29,423 nucleotides of DNA, from IMG/VR virus record IMGVR_UViG_3300006793_000174, positions 1 through 29,423 of that record; one strand, 5' to 3'. The translations under genes and the position numbers were made by a program. Below are positions 1 through 28,737 of this stretch, in pieces. A model generated the notes under the pieces. The model saw only the letters and a list, made by a program, of their open reading frames with translations, made no database searches and had not been told where the DNA came from. The DNA comes from a virus. Each line of letters opens with the position of its first letter. The stretch's first letter is position 1.

Positions 1-1
1 A

Positions 2-130
2 GAAAAACAAACAAAACGTATGAAGGATATTTTATTAAATGAAAATAGTTTTCAAATTGTAGATATAAAAAAAATAAATAATAACACTTTATTAAGTTAT
101 CAATACGGAGAAAATAACAATGAGAAATAA
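2..130 (+). CDS. 3' end of an unidentified gene (partial)
   Basis: An open frame runs in from the left window edge and stops with TAA at 128-130. An internal ATG at 20 would give a 36-residue Asn/Lys-rich peptide, but the frame is open to the edge, so this is more likely the C-terminus of a longer protein. It overlaps the next small gene by 11 bp, as in a tightly packed phage operon. No family recognised. Confidence 0.4.
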   Translation, partial: EKQTKRMKDILLNENSFQIVDIKKINNNTLLSYQYGENNNEK

Positions 131-209
131 AAAAGCAGAAACTATTTTTATAGTTCTATCTTTTCTACTAATTGATTCAGTAATATTTTATATTATTGCA
201 ATCAGATAA
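120..209 (+). CDS. 29-residue single-pass membrane peptide
   Basis: A short ORF starts with ATG at 120, preceded by GGAG about 8 bp upstream, and overlaps the end of the preceding frame. The peptide has a basic N-terminus (MRNKK) followed by an almost uninterrupted hydrophobic stretch (residues 9-28) long enough to cross a membrane once. It is followed within 15 bp by an intrinsic terminator, so it is the last gene of its transcription unit. It could be a lysis-associated membrane peptide, but nothing in the sequence proves that. The ribosome binding site and overlap with the neighbour support it being real. Confidence 0.4.
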   Translation: MRNKKAETIFIVLSFLLIDSVIFYIIAIR

Positions 210-221
210 TTTTTCAATTTT

Positions 222-260
222 TGCAGGCATTTTGAGTTTTTCAAGTGCCTGCATTTTTTA
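222..260 (+). terminator. Rho-independent terminator
   Basis: The arms TGCAGGCA (222-229) and TGCCTGCA (246-253) form a perfect 8-bp stem. The loop can extend it with a short TTGA/TCAA pairing. A run of six T follows immediately (254-259). It closes the transcription unit ending with the membrane peptide and separates it from the early gene block starting at 407. Confidence 0.8.
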
Positions 261-265
261 TAATT

Positions 266-288
266 CTACTATCATCATACCTGCGGAA
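266..288 (+). repeat. ATCATACCTGC motif, copy A
   Basis: Intergenic copy of a motif that recurs in the left part of the window: a CTACTATC-like lead followed by ATACCTGCGGAA. This copy has an extra ATC triplet. The 12-base ending ATACCTGCGGAA is shared exactly with copy B, 27 bp further on. Function unknown; see findings. Confidence 0.6.
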
Positions 289-300
289 CACCAATAGACG

Positions 301-315
301 TTCATACCTGCGGAA
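301..315 (+). repeat. ATCATACCTGC motif, copy B
   Basis: Second intergenic copy, reading TTCATACCTGCGGAA. It lacks the CTACTATC lead seen in copies A, C and E but keeps the complete right half. Copies A and B lie in tandem upstream of the early gene at 407. Confidence 0.6.
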
Positions 316-346
316 TATAATCCTATAAAAAATATATACTACGGGC

Positions 347-375
347 TTGCAATTAAAACGAACTTACACTAGAGT
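347..375 (+). promoter_or_regulatory. Possible host-type (sigma70) early promoter
   Basis: TTGCAA (347-352) and TAGAGT (370-375) are separated by 17 bp. Each matches the sigma70 hexamer at four of six positions, and the pair sits about 30 bp upstream of the first early gene, after a terminator. The ACGAACTT core (358-365) lies between the two boxes. The match is weak and AT-rich DNA gives such matches often. Confidence 0.3.
358..365 (+). promoter_or_regulatory. ACGAACTT element, copy 1
   Basis: Core ACGAACTT in the gap upstream of the gene at 407. The same core (or ACAAACTT) occurs upstream of the genes at 777, 3350 and 5842, always in non-coding DNA and on the same strand. This copy has the core only, without the flanking palindrome arms. 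Confidence 0.35.
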
Positions 376-406
376 CTAAGATATAAACAAAGACTTGGAG
401 GTCTAA

Positions 407-574
407 ATGAAAACAATAACATTAATAGTATATGTTTGTATGGTGTTGAACCAGACTTGTTTTACACTAGAAGAACCACAAGCAAGTATGGAGGAATGTC
501 AAGCGAATGATTTGTTATTACGAACTGAGTTTGAACATGATGAAAATATAACTGTAAGGGTAGACTGCAAATGA
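407..574 (+). CDS. Small secreted or membrane-anchored early protein, 55 aa
   Basis: ATG at 407 follows a strong GGAGG (397-401) at 5 bp. The 55-residue product has a typical signal-like N-terminus: MKT, a hydrophobic core to about residue 14, then a Thr/Glu-rich region. Cysteines lie at 11, 18, 31 and 54. The first two are in or near the leader and the last two could form a disulfide in a short exported domain. The stop overlaps the next start (ATGA at 571-574), so the two genes are translationally coupled. Function unknown. Its first place in the early block fits host take-over or superinfection roles, but that is only positional inference. Confidence 0.7.
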   Translation: MKTITLIVYVCMVLNQTCFTLEEPQASMEECQANDLLLRTEFEHDENITVRVDCK

Positions 575-729
575 AAGATGAAAAAACCTTAGAAAGTTAT
601 AAGAATAAAAACAAAGGAATGACTACAGAACAAAGAAAACAATTAAAAGAACGCAAGAGAGTAGAAAAATATTTTTCAAGCAGACAAGATTATTACAAAA
701 ATAAAAATGTAATTGAGACTGATGAATAA
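571..729 (+). CDS. Small basic hypothetical protein, 52 aa
   Basis: Starts in the ATGA overlap with the preceding gene and encodes 52 residues very rich in Lys, Arg and Glu, with predicted helical character (EQRKQLKERKRVEKYF at about 20-35). No signal peptide, cysteines or recognisable motif. The charged helical profile fits a small nucleic-acid- or protein-binding early protein, but no family is recognised. Coupling to the upstream gene and the phage-like gene density are the main reasons to accept it. Confidence 0.6.
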   Translation: MKDEKTLESYKNKNKGMTTEQRKQLKERKRVEKYFSSRQDYYKNKNVIETDE

Positions 730-740
730 TATTTATTTAA

Positions 741-751
741 CTACGAACTTG
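741..751 (+). promoter_or_regulatory. CTACGAACTTG element, copy 2
   Basis: CTACGAACTTG lies in the 47-bp gap upstream of the gene at 777. It matches the left arm and core of the palindromic copies at 3273-3288 and 5787-5802; the right arm is not kept here. Confidence 0.4.
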
Positions 752-776
752 AAATTTATAAAGGAGTGTATATAAA

Positions 777-989
777 ATGAATAATCAAAATGTTACTTTA
801 CTACCACAAAAATCTACTACTATCATACCTGCCGTATCAAAGAACGGTTACTTAACTGTTCAGGTTGTCTTCACTAGAAGAGAAGCAGACGGCCTAAGAA
901 CATACGGGTCAAAAGAGTTTGATAAGTACAACGTAGAAGGTTTTAAGAGAGCATTAAATAAACTTCAAAGAACTTTAGGAAGTTTATAA
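777..989 (+). CDS. Hypothetical early protein, 70 aa
   Basis: ATG at 777 follows AAGGAG (761-766). The 70-residue protein begins with an Asn/Gln/Thr-rich segment, then a probable beta-strand pair (GYLTVQVVFTRRE, about 24-36) and a basic helix (VEGFKRALNKLQRTL). No family recognised. Codons 14-19 coincide with copy C of the ATCATACCTGC motif, so part of the coding sequence may also be a DNA site. The fold could be a small DNA-binding protein, but that is a guess from charge and size. Confidence 0.65.
   Translation: MNNQNVTLLPQKSTTIIPAVSKNGYLTVQVVFTRREADGLRTYGSKEFDKYNVEGFKRALNKLQRTLGSL
817..837 (+). repeat. ATCATACCTGC motif, copy C (inside a gene)
   Basis: CTACTATCATACCTGCCG lies within the gene at 777, read as Thr-Ile-Ile-Pro-Ala. 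It shares 14 consecutive bases (CTACTATCATACCT) with copy E inside the RNA polymerase gene. Confidence 0.6.
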
Positions 990-999
990 CAAGTTTAAC

Positions 1000-1290
1000 A
1001 TGGAAACTTTACTCATGTTAATTATAGTCGGTGGGGGTGTATTTCTTTGTTTATTCCTCCGTTATAAAATCATCCTCACCGCTATTTATAAGAATTTATA
1101 CACAAAATTTTTTCACTTTATATGTAGAAATTGCAGAGGAAATGGTTACATAAGAGTAACATTTGAAGCGGAGGAACATATACATCAATGTGATATCTGC
1201 AAAAGTGAAGGTATATTGAAAGGAGGTAAATACTATGTCAAAGCTATTGTGCAACTATATAGAACGTACAAAACTAAAGTATCATTTTAG
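1000..1290 (+). CDS. Membrane-anchored zinc-ribbon-like protein, 96 aa
   Basis: The product has an N-terminal transmembrane segment (residues about 3-25). A cytosolic part follows, with two CxxC knuckles: CRNCRGNG (about 42-49) and CDICKSEG (about 64-71). This spacing with trailing Gly-x-Gly resembles a single DnaJ-type zinc-binding repeat. Such a layout suggests a small membrane protein that binds zinc and perhaps a host protein. The ribosome binding site is weak; a second ATG at codon 6 is an alternative start. Its 3' end overlaps the next small gene by 56 bp. Function not known. Confidence 0.65.
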   Translation: METLLMLIIVGGGVFLCLFLRYKIILTAIYKNLYTKFFHFICRNCRGNGYIRVTFEAEEHIHQCDICKSEGILKGGKYYVKAIVQLYRTYKTKVSF

Positions 1291-1369
1291 TGCTACAACA
1301 AAGAGAACAAGTATGTCTTGTGGCAATCAAAATGGTTGGATTGATAATTTAAACAACGCACCCAATTAG
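1235..1369 (+). CDS. Hypothetical protein, 44 aa, overlapping gene
   Basis: ATG at 1235 lies 8 bp downstream of a perfect AGGAGG (1221-1226), one of the strongest ribosome binding sites in the window. The site lies inside the preceding gene and the frame differs, so the overlap is 56 bp. The 44-residue product is basic in its first half and ends in a Gly/Asn-rich segment (CGNQNGWIDNLNNAPN). No family recognised. The ribosome binding site is the main evidence that this is a real gene. Confidence 0.5.
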   Translation: MSKLLCNYIERTKLKYHFSATTKRTSMSCGNQNGWIDNLNNAPN

Positions 1370-1381
1370 AAAGGACGAAAA

Positions 1382-1558
1382 ATGTTTTTTAGATTTTTAC
1401 ATGACATTTCTTTTTGTTTTTTAGGGAGGGAGTTTTATTTAGAAGTTTTCAGAACAAAGTCAAATAGACTTTATGAAACTATTAATATAAATACTTACGA
1501 AAAAATAATAATAATATTTGGTAGTTTACAAATTCATGTGTGTAAATTATCAAAGTAA
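1382..1558 (+). CDS. Hypothetical protein, 58 aa
   Basis: ATG at 1382 follows AAAGGA (1370-1375). The product starts with an aromatic, hydrophobic N-terminus (MFFRFLHDISFCFLG) that could associate with a membrane. A basic middle and a second hydrophobic strand (KIIIIFG, 41-47) follow. It ends 14 bp before the MarR-like gene. No homology recognised; it fills what would otherwise be an empty stretch in a gene-dense phage. Confidence 0.45.
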   Translation: MFFRFLHDISFCFLGREFYLEVFRTKSNRLYETININTYEKIIIIFGSLQIHVCKLSK

Positions 1559-1572
1559 CTATATGGAGGGCT

Positions 1573-1938
1573 ATGAGCAAAAATAATAATTTACGAAGAC
1601 TTCAGAATTTACTTCGTGAATTTGCTACATTAGAAAATTCTTTAGTTAATTCACAAGGTTTACCATTGCAGGTGGCTAGATTATTTATAGCTATTTGCAA
1701 CAAGCTTGGTGAAGAGAATAGTGTATCAACAAGTGATGTAAATGAGTTGTTAGGTTATAATTCAGCAACACTTAGTAGAAATATAAATACACTGTCAAAT
1801 AGACCTAAACGTAGTGGAACAGGTCTAGGGTTAATTACTACAGAAGAGAATATACATGACAGACGTAGTAAGTTAATCAAAATAACCACAAAAGGTAAGG
1901 CACTACAAAATAAACTGCTTGATATAATGAAAGGATAA
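1573..1938 (+). CDS. MarR-like winged-helix transcriptional regulator
   Basis: The 121-residue protein shows the MarR pattern: an N-terminal dimerisation helix, a helix-turn-helix (about 52-74, VSTSDVNELLGYNSATLSRNI), and a wing containing DRRSKLIKIT followed by TTKGKAL (96-110). The Asp-Arg-Arg wing motif is diagnostic of MarR-type proteins, which bind short palindromes as dimers. ATG at 1573 follows GGAGGG very closely. The gene stops 2 bp before the integrase start, so the two are co-transcribed. In this position it is the best candidate for a lysogeny or excision regulator. I see no classical CI/Cro-type repressor, and the inducing signal cannot be inferred. Confidence 0.8.
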   Translation: MSKNNNLRRLQNLLREFATLENSLVNSQGLPLQVARLFIAICNKLGEENSVSTSDVNELLGYNSATLSRNINTLSNRPKRSGTGLGLITTEENIHDRRSKLIKITTKGKALQNKLLDIMKG

Positions 1939-1940
1939 AT

Positions 1941-3044
1941 ATGCCAAGTAATGCGAAACAATCGCCAACAAAAGGTGTTCGCCCTAATTACAACGAGAGG
2001 GGAGAAACTGTAAGTTGGTTTGTAGATGCTAGTTACACTCATGTTGATGAGGTATCTGGCCAGAAGGAAGTCAAAAGAGCTACTGCTACAGTCAAGACCT
2101 ATGAAGAAGCTGTAAATAAAAAACAGCAACTTCAAGAGCAATTAGTGTACGGTATACCTATTGAGAAGAAAGAAAAGAAATGGACTTTGTTAGAAGCCAA
2201 AGACAATGTTTTTAAAAATCATTGGGAAGGTAGTAAAGCTGAGAAGACAGCTCTCATCAACTATCATACCTGCGAAGATTACTTTGGTAAAAACAGACCA
2301 TTAGAAACTATTGACGAAGACTTAATAGATGATTTCAAAGACCATTTGAAAGAGTTAGGTTTAAGTAATTCGACAATCAATCGTAAGCTTTCCGCTTTAA
2401 GTAAATTATTAACTCAAGCTTTAAAGAAAAGAAGGTTAAAGCAAAAACCATACATTGAGTTTTATAAGAAATCTAAAAGTAGGAAGAGGGTACTTAGTGA
2501 TATAGAAGAAAAGATGTTTTTAGATATATGTCAGCAATGGGGTATAGGTGAAGTATCTGATTATTTTATATTTTTGTTAGAGTCTGGTGTCAGACCTTGG
2601 AAAGAAGGTTTGGTAGTTAGAAAGTTAGATGTTGATTTAAAAAATAATACAATTCATGTCTGGCAAACTAAACAAAGTACCGATAGAACCATTTTTATGA
2701 CAGGTAAATTAAGAGAAGTTATCCAGAGAAGAATGAAGATAATTCAAGATCCGCAAGGGAGATTATTTACATTTACTAGAGATACTTTCTTTAACTACTG
2801 GTACAAGGTAAAAGCCCAAATGGACTTGGAGAATGACAAAACATTTATACCATATATGTTACGTCATACTTGTTGTACTAGGTTAGCTAAATCAAATCTT
2901 AGTTTACTTAAAATAAAAGAATGGATGGGTCACAAATCTATATTAACAACTATGGAATATGCCCATCTAAATACACAAAGCTTAATGGATTGTGCCAAAG
3001 CTTTAGAAAATCATAGATTAGATTTGGAATTTTCCAGAAATTAA
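1941..3044 (+). CDS. int: Tyrosine recombinase integrase
   Basis: The 367-residue protein has a SAM-like core-binding domain (about 80-165) and a C-terminal catalytic domain. Catalytic residues can be placed as R218 (SGVRPWKEG), K244 (QTKQSTDRT), R308 in YMLRHT, H331 (MGHKS) and nucleophile Y340 (MEYAHL). The usual His of the HxxR box is Tyr305, a variation seen in other active enzymes. The N-terminal 75 residues look like an arm-binding domain. It recombines attP with a bacterial attB. The gene lies 2 bp after the MarR-like regulator and 33 bp before a tRNA-Leu, the normal place for attP. Copy D of the ATCATACCTGC motif lies within codons 106-112. Confidence 0.95.
   Translation: MPSNAKQSPTKGVRPNYNERGETVSWFVDASYTHVDEVSGQKEVKRATATVKTYEEAVNKKQQLQEQLVYGIPIEKKEKKWTLLEAKDNVFKNHWEGSKAEKTALINYHTCEDYFGKNRPLETIDEDLIDDFKDHLKELGLSNSTINRKLSALSKLLTQALKKRRLKQKPYIEFYKKSKSRKRVLSDIEEKMFLDICQQWGIGEVSDYFIFLLESGVRPWKEGLVVRKLDVDLKNNTIHVWQTKQSTDRTIFMTGKLREVIQRRMKIIQDPQGRLFTFTRDTFFNYWYKVKAQMDLENDKTFIPYMLRHTCCTRLAKSNLSLLKIKEWMGHKSILTTMEYAHLNTQSLMDCAKALENHRLDLEFSRN
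2258..2276 (+). repeat. ATCATACCTGC motif, copy D (inside int)
   Basis: CAACTATCATACCTGCGAA in the integrase gene. Here the motif is read as Asn-Tyr-His-Thr-Cys-Glu, a different reading frame from copies C and E. Similarity between the copies therefore cannot be due to protein constraint. Confidence 0.6.
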
Positions 3045-3077
3045 TCTATAAAATGTTGCAAATGGATTGCAAAACGA

Positions 3078-3164
3078 GGGCGTATGGCGAAATTTGGTAG
3101 ACGCAACGGACTTAAAATCCGTGCCATTTATGGAGTGCCAGTTCGAGTCTGGCTACGCCCACCA
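3078..3164 (+). tRNA. tRNA-Leu (anticodon UAA)
   Basis: A complete 87-nt class II tRNA with encoded CCA can be folded. Acceptor arms are GGGCGTA (3078-3084) and TACGCCC (3154-3160), followed by discriminator A and CCA. The D stem is GCG/CGC. The anticodon stem ACGGA/TCCGT holds loop CTTAAAA with anticodon TAA at 3113-3115. A variable arm of the long Leu type (CCA-TTTA-TGG) follows, and the T arm is GCCAG/CTGGC with TTCGAGT. It lies 33 bp after the integrase. Phage integrases of this kind commonly use tRNA genes as targets, so this copy is probably the attP counterpart of a host tRNA-Leu and may also be expressed. Confidence 0.93.
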
Positions 3165-3167
3165 CAT

Positions 3168-3197
3168 CTACTGGTCTTAAAATCAAGAGACCAATAG
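3168..3197 (+). other. Hairpin downstream of the tRNA
   Basis: CTACTGGTCT (3168-3177) pairs with AGACCAATAG (3188-3197), 10 bp with one mismatch and a 10-nt loop. No T-run follows, so it is not a classical terminator. It could be a tRNA 3' processing or attenuation structure, or part of attP. Confidence 0.4.
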
Positions 3198-3224
3198 AAA
3201 CGCCCTCGTAGTAATCCAAAAAAT

Positions 3225-3238
3225 CCTAGTTATCTAGG
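3225..3238 (+). other. Short hairpin CCTAG-TTAT-CTAGG
   Basis: A 5-bp perfect stem with a 4-nt loop in the gap before the RNA polymerase gene. It is followed by only a short T stretch. It may be a weak terminator or a palindromic protein site. Confidence 0.3.
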
Positions 3239-3272
3239 CTTTATCAAGCAACATTTTTATTATAAACCTATA

Positions 3273-3288
3273 GCTACAAACTTGTAGT
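3273..3288 (+). promoter_or_regulatory. GCTACAAACTTGTAGT palindromic element, copy 3
   Basis: Near-perfect dyad: GCTAC, six-base centre AAACTT, GTAGT (one G-T pair), extendable to 3271-3290. It lies 61 bp upstream of the RNAP ATG. It matches the element upstream of the SSB gene at 14 of 16 bases. It may be an operator, a phage promoter, or an RNA hairpin in the leader. Confidence 0.5.
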
Positions 3289-3349
3289 TATTCAGAAGGT
3301 TTTGCAATCTTTGAAAAATAAGGTTGCAAAATTGCGGGAGCAAATAAAA

Positions 3350-5785
3350 ATGGACTATACAAAATACGTAAGAAATAAAGAACTAGAAGAGGAAATGCAG
3401 TTAGTTGGTCTACGGAGATATCAATCAATAGTAAATAATTCAGTACAAAAGGGTCAAGAAAGTACAACTAAATATGGCTTACAGCTTATCCAGTCGGCTA
3501 TTGACCCTTTATCAAAAGCAATAGTAGATTTTATTGATAGAGCTTTTGGTGGAGCTAAAGGTAGAAGGCATATATCAGCTAAGTATTTACAACTTATACC
3601 CGCTGACATTTGTGCATTTATAACTCTTAAATCATTGATGGATAGTATTACACTAGGCCAGACTCTTAACAAAGCATCAATCAGAATAGGAACAGCTTTA
3701 GAAGACCAGTATAGGTTTCAAATTTTTTCAAATGAAAAGAGTGGGTTGTTTCGTACATTGATGAAAGACTTACAAGCTAAATCTAATTACAGATATAAGA
3801 AGCGTGTACTTACACATACAATGAATAAGAAAGATATCATGTATGATAATTGGACTAATGTAGACAAGCTACACATAGGTACAAAGTGTATTGAGTTAGT
3901 AATAGAAGCTACAGGACTAATTAAAATAGTAATGAAAAATGAAGGTAGTAAAGGTAGAAGAGACACACCAAAATATGTAGAAGCAACAGAGAAAACAATG
4001 GAGTGGATTACAAATAAAAATGAAAGAAATGAAATACTAAGCCCTGCGTTTACACCTACTATCATACCTCCGAAAGACTGGGTACATCCATTTAGAGGTG
4101 GTTATCACAGCCCATTAATTAAACCTATACCGTTTGTTAAGGTTAGAAACCGAGGATTTTTAGAAGAAATATCAAACAGGGTTGGGGATATGCAAACTAC
4201 ATACGAAGCTGTAAATATACTTCAAGCAACACCGTGGAAAGTAGAAAAAAGAACTTATCAAGTATTGGATTATTGTTGGAACTCTTCAGACAGTATAGGT
4301 AAATTACCAACAAGAGAAGACCTACCATTACCACCAAAGCCAGAAGACATAGCAACTAATCTACAAGCAAGAATAGAGTGGAAAAGAAAAAGTGCAAAAA
4401 TATATGATTACAATGCAAAGTTAAAATCAAAGAGAATACAAATAGAAAAGGTAAGACAGATAGCTAATAAATATCAAAATGAACAAGAAATTTATTTTGT
4501 AAAGCAATGTGATTTTCGTGGCAGGATTTATGACGTACCTATGTTTTTAAATCCTAGTGCAAATGATGTAGCTAAAAGTTTATTAGTATTTGCTCATGGT
4601 AAACCTATTGGTAATGAAGAAAGTTTATCTTGGCTTGCCATACATGGAGCAAATTTATATGGCCATGATAAATTAAAATTAGAAGACCGTGTAGAATTTA
4701 TAAAACAAAATACAGAAATGATTTGTAATGTAGGTAGTGACCCATTGAATTACAAATGGTGGCAAAAGGCTGATAGCCCGTGGCAATTTTTAAGTTTTTG
4801 TTTTGAGTTTAATGACTTTATAAAAAGTGGAAGTAGTTCTAATTTTATTACACACTTACCAGTAAGTATTGACCATACTAATAGTGGCGTACAACATTTT
4901 AGTGGTATGTTAAAAGATGAGGTTGGTGGTGCAAGTACAAACTTAATACCTAATGATGAGCCTGCTGACATTTACCAAGATGTTGCAGACTTAGTTATAA
5001 TTAAACTAAAAAACTCTAGTGATCTGTTAGCCCAACAATGGCTTGAGTTTGGTATTAACAGAAAGACAACAAAGAGAGCTACAATGGTAAAACCTTACAG
5101 TGGAACAAGACAAAGTTGTAGAGAATATATTGAAGAACATATTGTAGAACGAGAAGAAAAAGGTGAAGCCCATCCTTTTGGAGATGATTTATTTAAAGCA
5201 TCAAATTATTTATCTAAATATGTTTATGAGTCTATCAATGAAACAGTAGTCAAGGCAGACGAATGTATGAAATGGTTACAACAAGTTAGTAGGTTAGTAT
5301 CAAATGAAAATTTACCAGTTATCTGGACTACTCCAAATGGTTTTCCAGTGTTCATGGCATACTTTGATATGGAAAGTAAAAGAATAAAAACTAAACTTGG
5401 AGACTCAACAATTAAACTAACTGTAAATACAGAAACAAAAAAGATTGCGAAGCGAAGGGTAGCTTCAGCTATTAGCCCAAATTATATTCATAGCCTTGAT
5501 GCTAATATGCTTCAAGACGCTGTAGTTCTGGCTAAGAAATATGGTATTGAAAATATATCAACGGTACATGATTGTTTTTCAGTATTATCTTGTGATGCTA
5601 TCAAAATGCACAATGCAATAAGAGAAGCTTTTGTCTCTATGTATTCCAGACCCGTTTTGGAAAATTTTAAAGCAGAGATTGAGAAGTTACTCAGTGAGAA
5701 GAACAAAAAGAAAATACCACCATTACCAGAATACGGTAATCTTGACCTTGAAAAAGTCAAAGACAGTCTTTTCTTTTGTTCATAA
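3350..5785 (+). CDS. Single-subunit DNA-directed RNA polymerase (T7 gp1-like)
   Basis: An 811-residue T7-type polymerase (T7: 883) that transcribes phage middle and late genes. Using the 811-residue form, catalytic residues are D508 in SIDHTNSG, K575 and Y583 in TKRATMVKPYSG, and D741 in STVHDCF. These correspond to T7 D537, K631, Y639 and D812. The HSLDAN motif and a C-terminal DSLFFCS resembling T7's FAFA foot are also present. ATG at 3350 is preceded by GGGAG at about 9 bp. The frame is open to a TTG at 3302, but those codons lie in an inverted repeat of the att region, so I prefer the ATG. Copy E of the ATCATACCTGC motif lies inside the gene. Placement just after attP means its transcription could change on integration. 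Confidence 0.95.
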   Translation: MDYTKYVRNKELEEEMQLVGLRRYQSIVNNSVQKGQESTTKYGLQLIQSAIDPLSKAIVDFIDRAFGGAKGRRHISAKYLQLIPADICAFITLKSLMDSITLGQTLNKASIRIGTALEDQYRFQIFSNEKSGLFRTLMKDLQAKSNYRYKKRVLTHTMNKKDIMYDNWTNVDKLHIGTKCIELVIEATGLIKIVMKNEGSKGRRDTPKYVEATEKTMEWITNKNERNEILSPAFTPTIIPPKDWVHPFRGGYHSPLIKPIPFVKVRNRGFLEEISNRVGDMQTTYEAVNILQATPWKVEKRTYQVLDYCWNSSDSIGKLPTREDLPLPPKPEDIATNLQARIEWKRKSAKIYDYNAKLKSKRIQIEKVRQIANKYQNEQEIYFVKQCDFRGRIYDVPMFLNPSANDVAKSLLVFAHGKPIGNEESLSWLAIHGANLYGHDKLKLEDRVEFIKQNTEMICNVGSDPLNYKWWQKADSPWQFLSFCFEFNDFIKSGSSSNFITHLPVSIDHTNSGVQHFSGMLKDEVGGASTNLIPNDEPADIYQDVADLVIIKLKNSSDLLAQQWLEFGINRKTTKRATMVKPYSGTRQSCREYIEEHIVEREEKGEAHPFGDDLFKASNYLSKYVYESINETVVKADECMKWLQQVSRLVSNENLPVIWTTPNGFPVFMAYFDMESKRIKTKLGDSTIKLTVNTETKKIAKRRVASAISPNYIHSLDANMLQDAVVLAKKYGIENISTVHDCFSVLSCDAIKMHNAIREAFVSMYSRPVLENFKAEIEKLLSEKNKKKIPPLPEYGNLDLEKVKDSLFFCS
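4056..4076 (+). repeat. ATCATACCTGC motif, copy E (inside RNAP gene)
   Basis: CTACTATCATACCTCCGAAA within the RNA polymerase gene, read as Thr-Ile-Ile-Pro-Pro-Lys. It is identical to copy C over 14 bases and differs from the consensus by C for G in CCTGC. This is the rightmost copy I could find. Confidence 0.55.
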
Positions 5786-5786
5786 T

Positions 5787-5802
5787 GCTACGAACTTGTA
5801 GC
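5787..5802 (+). promoter_or_regulatory. GCTACGAACTTGTAGC palindromic element, copy 4
   Basis: Perfect 5-bp arms GCTAC/GTAGC around GAACTT, in the 56-bp gap between the RNA polymerase and SSB genes. It has the same layout as copy 3. It could be a phage-polymerase promoter for the replication genes, a regulator site, or an RNA processing hairpin. Confidence 0.5.
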
Positions 5803-5841
5803 AATTAAGTACCACCTTAAGACAACAAGAAGGGATGATAT

Positions 5842-6453
5842 ATGAATGAAAATCTTAAATTAACGTCACCAAAAGGTACGTTTGTCTATCCCCATTTGAA
5901 TAAACCAGATACTAAGTTTAATGCAGATGGTGAGTATAAAGTAACTCTATCGCTAACAAGCGAAGAAGCTACGCCTTTATTGAAAACTTTAGAAGAACAG
6001 ATAAGTCTATCAAAGTCTGAAGCAGAAGAAAAGGCCAAAGGTAAAAAACTTAAAGTGGCAGACCCACCTTATGTAGTTAATGAGGAAGACGGTAATTACC
6101 ATTTTAAATTTAAATTAAAAGCAAGAGTTAAAAGCTCTAAGACAGGTAACGAGTGGGAACAAAAGCCCGCTATATTTGACTCTCAACTAAAACCTTTTTC
6201 ACTTGATAAACAAATATGGGGTGGAACACAGGGTAAAATTTCATTTGAGGTTGTTCGTTATTTTGTAGCTACTACTGGAGCAGGCATCACATTACGAATG
6301 AAGGCTGTTCAGATTATTGATTTAGTAGAAGGTAGTGGTGGTGATGGAACTAAACATGGTTTCAACACTGAAGACGGTTATGTTGGAAATGATGTAACTG
6401 ATAGCGAACCAGAAAATGAAATGGTTAGTGAGTCGAATGAAGACGATTTCTAA
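5842..6453 (+). CDS. Single-stranded DNA-binding protein (T7 gp2.5-like)
   Basis: A 203-residue protein (T7 gp2.5: 232) with an OB-type beta-rich body and the hallmark acidic tail. The last 20 or so residues are dominated by Asp/Glu/Ser and end in NEDDF, with the terminal Phe that in gp2.5 contacts the polymerase and helicase. It coats ssDNA at the replication fork and promotes annealing. ATG at 5842 follows GAAGGGATG-like purines. The gene begins the replication cluster, and its tail-coding DNA overlaps the start of the endonuclease gene. Family assignment rests on position, fold-like pattern and tail. Confidence 0.85.
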   Translation: MNENLKLTSPKGTFVYPHLNKPDTKFNADGEYKVTLSLTSEEATPLLKTLEEQISLSKSEAEEKAKGKKLKVADPPYVVNEEDGNYHFKFKLKARVKSSKTGNEWEQKPAIFDSQLKPFSLDKQIWGGTQGKISFEVVRYFVATTGAGITLRMKAVQIIDLVEGSGGDGTKHGFNTEDGYVGNDVTDSEPENEMVSESNEDDF

Positions 6454-6847
6454 ATATAGATTTCGTAGTGGTCTTGAGGTAGATATTTCTAAATTTTTAG
6501 AAGAGAATAAAGTTAAATATGATTATGAAACTTTAACTATTAACTATCTCAAGCCACAACAAAAATCATATTACAGACCAGATTTTATATTGGATAATGG
6601 AATTATAATTGAAGCTAAAGGTTTGTTTTCTAGTGCCGATAGAAAGAAACATAAAATTATAAAAAACCAGTTCGGTGATGAGTACGATATTCGTTTCGTA
6701 TTTTCTAATTCTAAAAACAGAATTGGTAAAAAAAGTAAAACAACTTACGCAAAGTGGTGTGATTTATTTGGGTTTAAATGGCACTGTATAAGAACAACAG
6801 GGGAATACATACCAAGGGAGTGGTTAAAAGAAAATGGCAAGAGATAA
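6437..6847 (+). CDS. Endonuclease I / Holliday junction resolvase (T7 gp3-like)
   Basis: A 136-residue protein (T7: 149) with the phage endonuclease I pattern: FRSGLE (E14), YDYET (E31), YRPDF (D49), and IIEAKG (E59, K61). These correspond to the T7 metal-binding PD-(D/E)XK residues. The later DRKKHKII and DIRFVFSNSKNRIG segments also match. It resolves branched DNA and helps degrade host DNA for nucleotide reuse. I chose the ATG at 6437 because the product then begins like the T7 enzyme. An ATG at 6416 in the same frame would add seven residues. Either start overlaps the SSB gene, so translation is coupled. Confidence 0.92.
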   Translation: MKTISKYRFRSGLEVDISKFLEENKVKYDYETLTINYLKPQQKSYYRPDFILDNGIIIEAKGLFSSADRKKHKIIKNQFGDEYDIRFVFSNSKNRIGKKSKTTYAKWCDLFGFKWHCIRTTGEYIPREWLKENGKR

Positions 6848-7259
6848 AACAGAATATATATTTATTCATTGTTCAGCGACAAGACCTTCAATGGATTGGG
6901 TCAATGCAGATGAAATAGATAAATGGCATAGGGCTAGAGGATTTTTTAAGATTGGTTATACCTTTGTTATTACCCGTGATGGAACTTTAGAAAAGGGTAG
7001 AGATTTATATGAACCTACAGCTAGTCAAAGAGGTTACAATCATAACTCAATTTCAATTTGTATGGTTGGTGGTGTAACAGAAGATGACATACACAAAGCT
7101 GAAAATAACTACACACCAGAGCAATGGTCACAGTTAAAAGATTTATTAACGGAAATGAAAGAAGAATTTCCCAAAGCAAAAATAGTTGGTCACAATGAAT
7201 TTAGTTCAAAAGAGTGTCCAAGTTTTGACGTTCAGAAATACGTAAAAGAGAATTTTTAG
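6834..7259 (+). CDS. N-acetylmuramoyl-L-alanine amidase (T7 lysozyme gp3.5-like)
   Basis: A 141-residue zinc amidase (T7: 151) of the Amidase_2 fold. It cleaves the bond between N-acetylmuramic acid and L-alanine in peptidoglycan. Zinc ligands are visible as H12 (FIHCSAT), H120 (GHNEF) and C128 (ECPSFD), with catalytic Y42 (IGYTF) and K126. The GYNHNSI motif follows T7 lysozyme closely. In T7 this protein also binds and inhibits the phage RNA polymerase; whether it does so here is inference. It overlaps the endonuclease gene by 14 bp. No signal peptide is present, so it needs a holin for access to the wall. Confidence 0.95.
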   Translation: MARDKTEYIFIHCSATRPSMDWVNADEIDKWHRARGFFKIGYTFVITRDGTLEKGRDLYEPTASQRGYNHNSISICMVGGVTEDDIHKAENNYTPEQWSQLKDLLTEMKEEFPKAKIVGHNEFSSKECPSFDVQKYVKENF

Positions 7260-27249: not shown

Positions 27250-28737
27250 ATGGCACTATCGTATGTAAAATATACGGCAGATGGTTCTACTAACCAATTT
27301 GCTGTAACATTTAGTTATATTCAACAATCAGACGTAAAAGTATTTATTGATGGAGTTGAAGACAATAGCAGAACTTTTGTCAATAGTGCATTAGTTCAAA
27401 CCTCTACTACACCATCTAATGGAGCTATTGTTAATGTTAAAAGAACAACATCTAACACAGCAAGACTTGTAGATTTCCAAGATGGGTCTGTTTTAACAGA
27501 ATCAGATTTAGATACGTCAGCTAACCAAAACTTTTTTACAGTTCAAGAAAACTTTGACCGTACAGAAGATACTATACAACTAACTACTGCTGATGTGTGG
27601 GATGCTCAAAGTAAAAAACTTAGTAATGTAGCTGACCCCGTATCTGACCAAGATGCTGTAACTAAAATTTATTTATCAAATACCTTTTTAACTGATGCAA
27701 ATAAAACAGCTTTAACAAATGTAAATGCAAATATTTCTAACATAAACGCTGTTAATTCTAATAGTTCTAATATTACTACTGTTGCAGGTAATAATACAAA
27801 TATAAATACTGTAGCAGGTATATCTTCTAATGTTACAACTGTAGCAGGCATAAGTTCAGACGTTACAACTGTAGCGGGTATTTCTAGTGCTGTATCTTCA
27901 GTAAATTCTAATGCTACAAATATTAATACCGTTGCAACAAATATAAGTTCAGTTAATACCGTAGCTACTGATATTACAAAGGTTATTGCAGTTGCTAATG
28001 ATTTGGCCGAAGCTGTTTCTGAAGTAGAGACAGTTGCAAACGATTTAAATGAGTCTACAAGTGAGATTGATACAGTAGCTACTAACATTGCTAATGTAAA
28101 TACTGTTGGCGGAGCTATAGCTAACGTGAATACAGTAGCGGGCATTTCTTCTAATGTTACAACCGTTGCGGGTATATCGAGTGATGTAACTGCTGTAGTA
28201 GGAATATCTAGTGCTGTAAGTGGTGTTAATTCTAACTCAACAAATATTAATGCTGTAAATTCTAACGCTACAAACATTAATACTGTAGCGGGAATATCAA
28301 GTAACATTACAACTGTAGCAGGAGTATCTAGTAACATCACAACAGTTGCAGGTATATCTAGTGATGTAACTACAGTAGCAGGAGCTAACTCTAATATTTC
28401 TACAGTAGCTTCTAATATATCTGGCGTAAATAGTTTTGCAGAAAGATATAGAATAGCATCTAGTGACCCTTCTTCATCATTAAATGAGGGTGATTTAGTT
28501 TATAATTCAACAGATAACGTATTAAAATTTTATGATGGTAGTTCTTGGAACAGCATCACTGCTGATACAGATGTAAAAACAAAAGTATCAGCTAACGACA
28601 CTACAGCAGGTTTTCTTAACGGTAAACTTGTTGCAGGGTCAAACGTAACTTTCACTGAAAATTCAGACGGTGGAAATGAAACATTAACAGTAGCAGTCAC
28701 GGATAATAGTATTCCGTTTGCTATAGCATTAGGATGA
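27250..28737 (+). CDS. Tail fibre protein (T7 gp17-like N-terminus)
   Basis: A 495-residue fibre. Residues 1-115 match the T7 fibre N-terminal domain that anchors to the tail, including YVKYTADGSTNQFAVTFSYI and TARLVDFQDGSVLTESDLD. A short DAVTK linker leads into about 20 decapeptide repeats of the form I-S-S-N-V-T-T-V-A-G (161-388), expected to form an elongated beta or coiled shaft. The C-terminal part has DPSSSLNEGDLVYNSTDNVLKFYDG and a beta-rich end domain. It recognises the host surface as a trimer. AAAGGA precedes ATG 27250. The shaft end and receptor domain differ completely from T7. Confidence 0.92.
   Translation: MALSYVKYTADGSTNQFAVTFSYIQQSDVKVFIDGVEDNSRTFVNSALVQTSTTPSNGAIVNVKRTTSNTARLVDFQDGSVLTESDLDTSANQNFFTVQENFDRTEDTIQLTTADVWDAQSKKLSNVADPVSDQDAVTKIYLSNTFLTDANKTALTNVNANISNINAVNSNSSNITTVAGNNTNINTVAGISSNVTTVAGISSDVTTVAGISSAVSSVNSNATNINTVATNISSVNTVATDITKVIAVANDLAEAVSEVETVANDLNESTSEIDTVATNIANVNTVGGAIANVNTVAGISSNVTTVAGISSDVTAVVGISSAVSGVNSNSTNINAVNSNATNINTVAGISSNITTVAGVSSNITTVAGISSDVTTVAGANSNISTVASNISGVNSFAERYRIASSDPSSSLNEGDLVYNSTDNVLKFYDGSSWNSITADTDVKTKVSANDTTAGFLNGKLVAGSNVTFTENSDGGNETLTVAVTDNSIPFAIALG
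27730..28413 (+). repeat. 30-bp tandem repeats in the tail fibre shaft
   Basis: Residues 161-250 and 279-388 fall into consecutive 10-residue units (consensus roughly x-x-S-N-[IV]-x-T-V-A-G), about 20 in all. Between them two 14-residue units (251-278, ending in TVAN and TVAT) break the register. At the DNA level units are 30 bp and diverged in third positions, so most are old duplications. Confidence 0.85.

Follow-up and report, generated by a model that had tools for sequence, protein, structure and literature searches.

What does a short DNA motif do that occurs five times at one end of a phage genome, always in the same orientation, both between and inside genes? The question is raised by the IMG/VR virus record IMGVR_UViG_3300006793_000174, whose 29,423 nucleotides (hereafter the window) represent a 29.4-kb fragment of a temperate T7-like phage. 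The element is built around the octamer TCATACCT, found at positions 275, 302, 823, 2264 and 4062, all on the + strand and all within the left 4.1 kb. A search of both strands of the window yielded no sixth copy, in agreement with an earlier note, made from the sequence alone, that had reported five co-oriented copies at these places and none in the remaining 25 kb. Two copies are non-coding and lie in the leader, and the others are in open reading frame 3 (ORF3), in a tyrosine integrase gene and in the gene of a T7-type RNA polymerase (RNAP). The reading frames given in that note were also correct, namely Thr-Ile-Ile-Pro in ORF3 and RNAP and Tyr-His-Thr-Cys in the integrase. We tentatively propose, at close to an even chance, that the five copies are binding sites of one phage-encoded sequence-specific regulator, most likely a lysogeny or early-gene repressor, which would block transcription at the leader and form roadblocks within the genes.

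The conserved core is (AC)TATCATACCTGC, with CCTCC in the RNAP copy, and none of the copies in the window is palindromic. The earlier note had credited them with a longer shared sequence; the common core holds in all five, whereas ATACCTGCGGAA is common to the two leader copies only and the CTACTA extension is absent from the copy at 302. The bare octamer is expected 1.06 times by shuffling, and one of 100 shuffles reached five copies; it is the extended motif that is significant. We scored 18-mers with a seed-based measure, which sums, for any seed, its four best matches that do not overlap. In the left 4.2 kb, the best five-copy set reached 111.8, versus 80.9 +/- 1.9 (maximum 84.7) in dinucleotide shuffles, none of which gave an equally good set. 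With a protein-preserving null, in which synonymous codons were redrawn from the phage's own usage and the non-coding parts alone were shuffled, the mean was 82.2 (standard deviation 2.0, maximum 88.0), and 0 of 100 sequences reached the observed value. On the strength of these two nulls, we reject a chance origin of the motif. The score of the left end tops that of every other 4.2-kb stretch, except for coding repeats of a tail protein at 27.8-28.3 kb. The latter repeats (27767-28320, in a tail-fibre-like protein) are tandem-like, with spacings of ~30 bp or multiples thereof, and encode TNINTVAGISSNVTTVAG-like repeats.

An independent relative, IMGVR_UViG_3300022183_001449 (L006), was used as a test of motif conservation. 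Amino-acid identities between the two phages are 90% for the integrase, 88% for RNAP, 86% for a MarR-like regulator and 63% for ORF3. At each of the three intragenic sites L006 has 0 differences over 14 nt, with silent changes nearby in every gene. The joint fraction of equally conserved L006 sequence windows is ~3e-4, or ~8e-3 using amino-acid-identical windows only. Conservation of the integrase and RNAP sites alone is not significant; the strong case is the ORF3 site, which is the longest run identical to L006 in a gene with 66% DNA identity. The leader copy of L006 appears more telling than this intragenic conservation. It reads ATCATACCTGC (64-74), against an expectation of 5e-5 copies in 760 nt, and the left ends of the two phages share short matches only, with different first genes and otherwise unrelated leaders. 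L006 carries an extra copy in its integrase gene at 2838 (RHTCC); as the window reads CATACTTG at that place, this copy is probably due to chance.

The motif is absent from the sister phages L008, L010 and L131/L325, whose integrases and RNAPs are ~49% and 57-67% identical, respectively, to those of the window at the amino-acid level. Where their sequences could be read, the integrase and RNAP sites of these phages are almost unchanged in residues (INYKTCE, PTIVAPRDW, PTVIAPRDW) but use other codons; L008, for instance, has AATTATAAAACTTGTGAA (NYKTCE) at the integrase site. In view of the codon divergence in L008 and L010, together with the synonymous-codon null, we reject a protein-level explanation. 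Given that null, the conservation in L006 and the differing codons of the sister phages, the signal sits in DNA or RNA and not in protein, as the earlier note had supposed. That note had taken a lack of the motif in related phages as a point that would count against it; the motif is present in L006 and absent from more distant phages. A search for ATCATACCTGC in the pelagiphage isolates HTVC041P, HTVC025P, Gjalp and HTVC011P was also negative. As it is present in L006 and absent from the sisters and these four isolates, the motif marks one clade, as immunity-type operators often do. Separately, we noticed the sequence CATCCYTG, one base off CATACCTG, on the + strand of L008 (49, 88 and 2187) and L325 (4736, 5206 and 6720), in leaders and integrase genes. 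It is possibly the sister phages' version of the motif, a weak post hoc lead that we do not count as evidence.

Wider searches were made for further carriers. An IMG/VR pattern scan for the paired leader motif gave at least 120 matches; the inspected ones resemble unrelated coding sequence repeated in phase, with spacings that are mostly multiples of 3, rather than leaders, and were rejected. A longer ORF3-type pattern matched 8 contigs, with L006 as the sole relative among them. An integrase search of 84,980 genome species returned distant integrases of unrelated bacteria only and no prophage of this clade.

The arrangement of the copies is best viewed against the gene order of the fragment, which runs from left to right through small ORFs, the MarR-like regulator, the tyrosine integrase, a tRNA-Leu, the T7-type RNAP, a single-stranded DNA-binding protein (ssb), and replication and structural genes (Table 1). 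This kind of layout is found in LUZ100 and other temperate T7-like phages (PMC10134795). The nearest annotated relatives of the RNAP, at ~43% amino-acid identity, are those of pelagiphages and related marine phage records (Gjalp, Eyrgjafa, HTVC025P and HTVC041P), which makes a SAR11-type host likely. An AlphaFold2 model of the MarR-like protein (mean predicted local distance difference test score, pLDDT, of 81) has MarR-like secondary structure. The probable terminator listed first in Table 1 was not reported by our terminator scan (loop limit 8).

Table 1. Positions of the motif copies and of neighbouring features at the left end of the window
Feature	Position	Strand	Details
Probable intrinsic terminator of upstream unit, just 5' of leader copies	222..259	+	TGCAGGCA...TGCCTGCATTTTTT; RNA fold -17.2 kcal/mol
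Motif copy 1, leader, non-coding	266..288	+	CTACTATCATCATACCTGCGGAA
Motif copy 2, leader, non-coding; 27 bp after copy 1, directly 5' of TATAAT (316-321)	301..315	+	TTCATACCTGCGGAA
ORF3, 70 aa, no known family; contains motif copy 3 at codons 15-20	777..989	+	
Motif copy 3, in ORF3, read TIIPAV	817..837	+	CTACTATCATACCTGCCGTAT
MarR-like winged-helix regulator, 121 aa, immediately 5' of integrase	1573..1938	+	PF13463 2.5e-5; PHROG 9665 2.3e-16
Tyrosine integrase	1941..3044	+	PF00589 4.3e-19
Motif copy 4, in integrase gene, read NYHTCE	2258..2276	+	CAACTATCATACCTGCGAA
tRNA-Leu (TAA), presumed attP	3078..3164	+	attP assignment inferred
T7-type single-subunit RNAP, 811 aa counted from ATG	3350..5785	+	PF00940 2.2e-105; T7 RNAP 4e-130
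Motif copy 5, in RNAP, read TIIPPKD (aligns with T7 RNAP VVPPKPW)	4056..4076	+	CTACTATCATACCTCCGAAAG

Every copy is upstream of or within the RNAP gene, that is, in the part expected to be transcribed by the host RNAP under a T7-like scheme, taken here as in LUZ100 (PMC10134795). Two copies head the early unit, just after the terminator and adjoining the TATAAT hexamer, which we infer to be a -10 box. We propose operator and roadblock sites because the copies fill this host-transcribed part, share one orientation, are concentrated at the start of the unit and recur in genes up to and including RNAP. The regulator would recognize the asymmetric core in double-stranded DNA. Binding to the two leader copies, 27 bp apart at the start of the early unit transcribed by the host polymerase, would block initiation, and each of the single intragenic copies (ORF3, integrase, RNAP), oriented with transcription, would serve as a roadblock or a pause site. 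Read-through from host promoters would then yield no active phage RNAP during lysogeny or prematurely in infection. Among the three functions considered in the earlier note, an operator set is the best supported, whereas a phage promoter and a recombination or accessory site are disfavoured for the reasons given below.

Asymmetric, co-oriented operators with additional downstream sites are a known repressor design. In cluster A mycobacteriophages, the repressor recognizes its asymmetric site as a monomer, and the block is lost when the site is reversed (PMC9283540). The operators and stoperators of these temperate phages (L5, TipsytheTRex repressor; PMC9283540) are, like the copies described here, short asymmetric sites oriented with transcription and located at the early promoter and downstream of it. 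In the window, a single asymmetric site with a conserved core likewise occurs in five copies, and copies and genes are all on the + strand. However, cluster A phages have more than 20 sites, located genome-wide in short intergenic spaces as well as at the early promoter, whereas the five sites found here are restricted to the early region, two of them by the -10-like box and three deep inside genes, with none in the right 25 kb. Their sequence is unrelated, the T7-like phage has its own RNAP and an unrelated host, and no homologous repressor was identified. We therefore propose that the motif set may work like a stoperator system, without filing it as a member, because its downstream sites are intragenic and not spread across the genome. 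A fuller version of this idea appears rather unlikely as a whole: a monomeric repressor on the asymmetric site would silence the early region first at the promoter and then through roadblocks in the integrase and RNAP genes, as safeguards against expression of the phage polymerase in lysogeny, in parallel to a MarR switch acting at separate palindromic sites.

Several points weigh against operators and roadblocks. The motif is carried by just one independent relative, its copies are deep within genes whereas stoperators are known from short intergenic spaces, and we found no clear or consensus -35 element with the leader copies. Candidate readers of the motif are the MarR-like protein, as the obvious choice, ORF3 or the product of a gene outside the fragment. 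However, L008, although without the exact motif, shares the recognition helix of the MarR-like protein (SATLSRNINTL) unchanged, suggesting that either this protein is not the reader or the motif has drifted. MarR-family operators are palindromic sites for a dimer, unlike the copies in the window. As for ORF3, a homologue was found only in the motif-bearing L006. Its AlphaFold2 model (mean pLDDT 72.8) consists of two helices with a low-confidence N-terminus and has no significant match in the PDB, and an AP2-like DNA-binding fold was dropped as a candidate. No L5-type repressor was recognized among the left-end proteins. Since the right end of the phage is outside the fragment, the reader is possibly encoded there.

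A last point against the proposed operators is that better candidates for MarR operators exist before RNAP and ssb. A second repeated intergenic element, CTACRAACTTG..(A/T)ATTAA, is present at 342-360, 741-761, 3274-3294 and 5788-5808, ~35-75 nt 5' of gene starts, the copy at 342 being weak; it may be either a phage promoter or a MarR-type operator. The elements at 3274 (before RNAP) and 5788 (before ssb) form a palindromic CTAC-N6-GTAG dyad, and at the ssb site the arms change together in L006 and L008 (GCTAC/GTAGC, CCTAC/GTAGG). Palindromes of the type TTGCA-N4/5-TGCAA are located 5' of early genes, RNAP and ssb in HTVC041P (L201; 1473, 1497, 4040, 4095, 4146 and 6809) and HTVC025P (L202; 263, 3516, 3621, 3677 and 6936) and appear to be good candidates for operators of MarR-like repressors. 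In HTVC041P, the TTGCA-N4-TGCAA dyads at 4095, 4146 and 6809 occupy places corresponding to the CTAC-N6-GTAG dyads of the window. The dyads of these two isolates are palindromic and mostly intergenic, whereas the five-copy motif is asymmetric and largely intragenic; the CTAC-N6-GTAG dyads look more like MarR sites than the motif does. The window shares with the temperate T7-like phages for which a MarR lysogeny switch has been proposed (LUZ100, Pasto, HTVC019P-type; PMC10134795) a MarR-like regulator and an integrase ahead of RNAP and a nearby tRNA-Leu. In the LUZ100-type switch, the regulator is proposed to silence RNAP, and the proposed sites flank the promoter 5' of RNAP (PMC10134795).

T7-like phages of SAR11 with an integrase are known, and some lysogenize their hosts, but silencing of their own RNAP is only hypothesized, by a MarR-type repressor at RNAP. 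If the motif copies are indeed operators and roadblocks, they would be a further set of control sites, some of them within the gene of the polymerase, and would make this silencing directly testable. Since one clade has the motif and its sister phages lack it, the motif would also provide a sequence handle on the immunity groups of these phages.

The main rival to operators is an element acting in early mRNA, recognized by an RNA-binding protein, an RNase, an antitermination factor or a base-pairing small RNA that would act jointly on the messages of the leader, ORF3, integrase and RNAP. Every copy is in sense orientation in what is presumed to be a single early transcript, and sites within genes would be unsurprising for an RNA target. 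Moreover, the leader copy of L006 forms one arm of a strong hairpin, within a long near-perfect inverted repeat at 38-89 (CTTTTATAA.CT.CTGCAGGT / ACCTGCAG.GG.TTATAAAAG; fold z -4.46). The window has no such repeat, its copies fold unremarkably (z 0.31, -0.12, -0.19 and 1.07), and an inverted partner of the motif was found only for this L006 leader copy and, weakly, for the L006 ORF3 copy. A search of Rfam over positions 1-6000 matched the tRNA alone, and no complement of the motif core is present elsewhere in the window. An RNA-level function is rather unlikely.

Less probable still is a class of promoters, read either by the phage RNAP, as ACTAT resembles CACTATAG of T7-type promoters, or by the host enzyme with TATCAT as a -10 box. 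The copies are, like T7-type promoters, asymmetric, co-oriented and ~20 bp long, and TATCAT gives weak sigma70-like matches at some of them (797-826 and 2239-2267; 40-68 and 785-813 in L006). However, such matches are not in excess (23, versus 26.7 in shuffles), and ACTAT is absent from copy 2. Three of the five copies are inside coding sequence, and the 23 kb downstream of RNAP, expected to be transcribed by the phage polymerase, contain none, which leaves the genes for ssb, replication, capsid and tail without a preceding copy; T7-like phages place phage promoters before such middle and late genes, as in LUZ100 (PMC10134795). The CTACRAACTTG element described above is better placed as a phage promoter, and the motif does not look like a good T7-type promoter.

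Coincidence combined with protein conservation was already disfavoured by the nulls and is very improbable. TIIP (ORF3), TIIPP (RNAP) and HTC (integrase) would share codons by accident, and the leader pair would be a local duplication. The coding copies do encode conserved residues, the PP-W motif of RNAP being present in T7 as well, and the extra L006 integrase copy looks fortuitous. Against this stand the synonymous-codon null, the independent occurrence in the L006 leader and the different codons that sister phages use for the same residues.

Arm-type or accessory sites of the integrase, serving integration and excision, are the least credible reading: five asymmetric sites next to an integrase and a tRNA attP recall phage lambda, which also has five arm sites, and sister phages without the motif have a divergent N-terminal integrase domain, but the copies are 0.8-2.9 kb from the tRNA-Leu presumed to be attP, whereas arm sites lie no more than a few hundred bp from the core. 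Suitably arranged repeats adjoin the tRNA-Leu itself (3056-3077 and 3300-3331). They are TTGCAA repeats, with GATTGCAAAA at 3065, the inverse TTTTGCAATC at 3300 and the direct TTGCAAAA at 3324, kept in L006 and with TTGCTTA-type counterparts on both sides in L008; conserved as arm sites should be, they are probably the arm-type sites of the integrase.

The RNAP gene itself differs in organization among these phages. It is one intact ORF in the window and in L006, and two ORFs in L008 (3234-3956 and 3917-5632), L010 (266-2721), HTVC041P (4185-5162 and 5131-6804), HTVC025P (3767-4756 and 5254-6930) and L203 (7222-9841), suggesting either a frameshift or a polymerase made in two parts. Most of the paired pieces overlap by 20-40 nt, and HTVC025P has two ORFs between them. 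The break in L008 and L010 directly follows a conserved GGYH segment, at about residue 253-260 of the window's protein.

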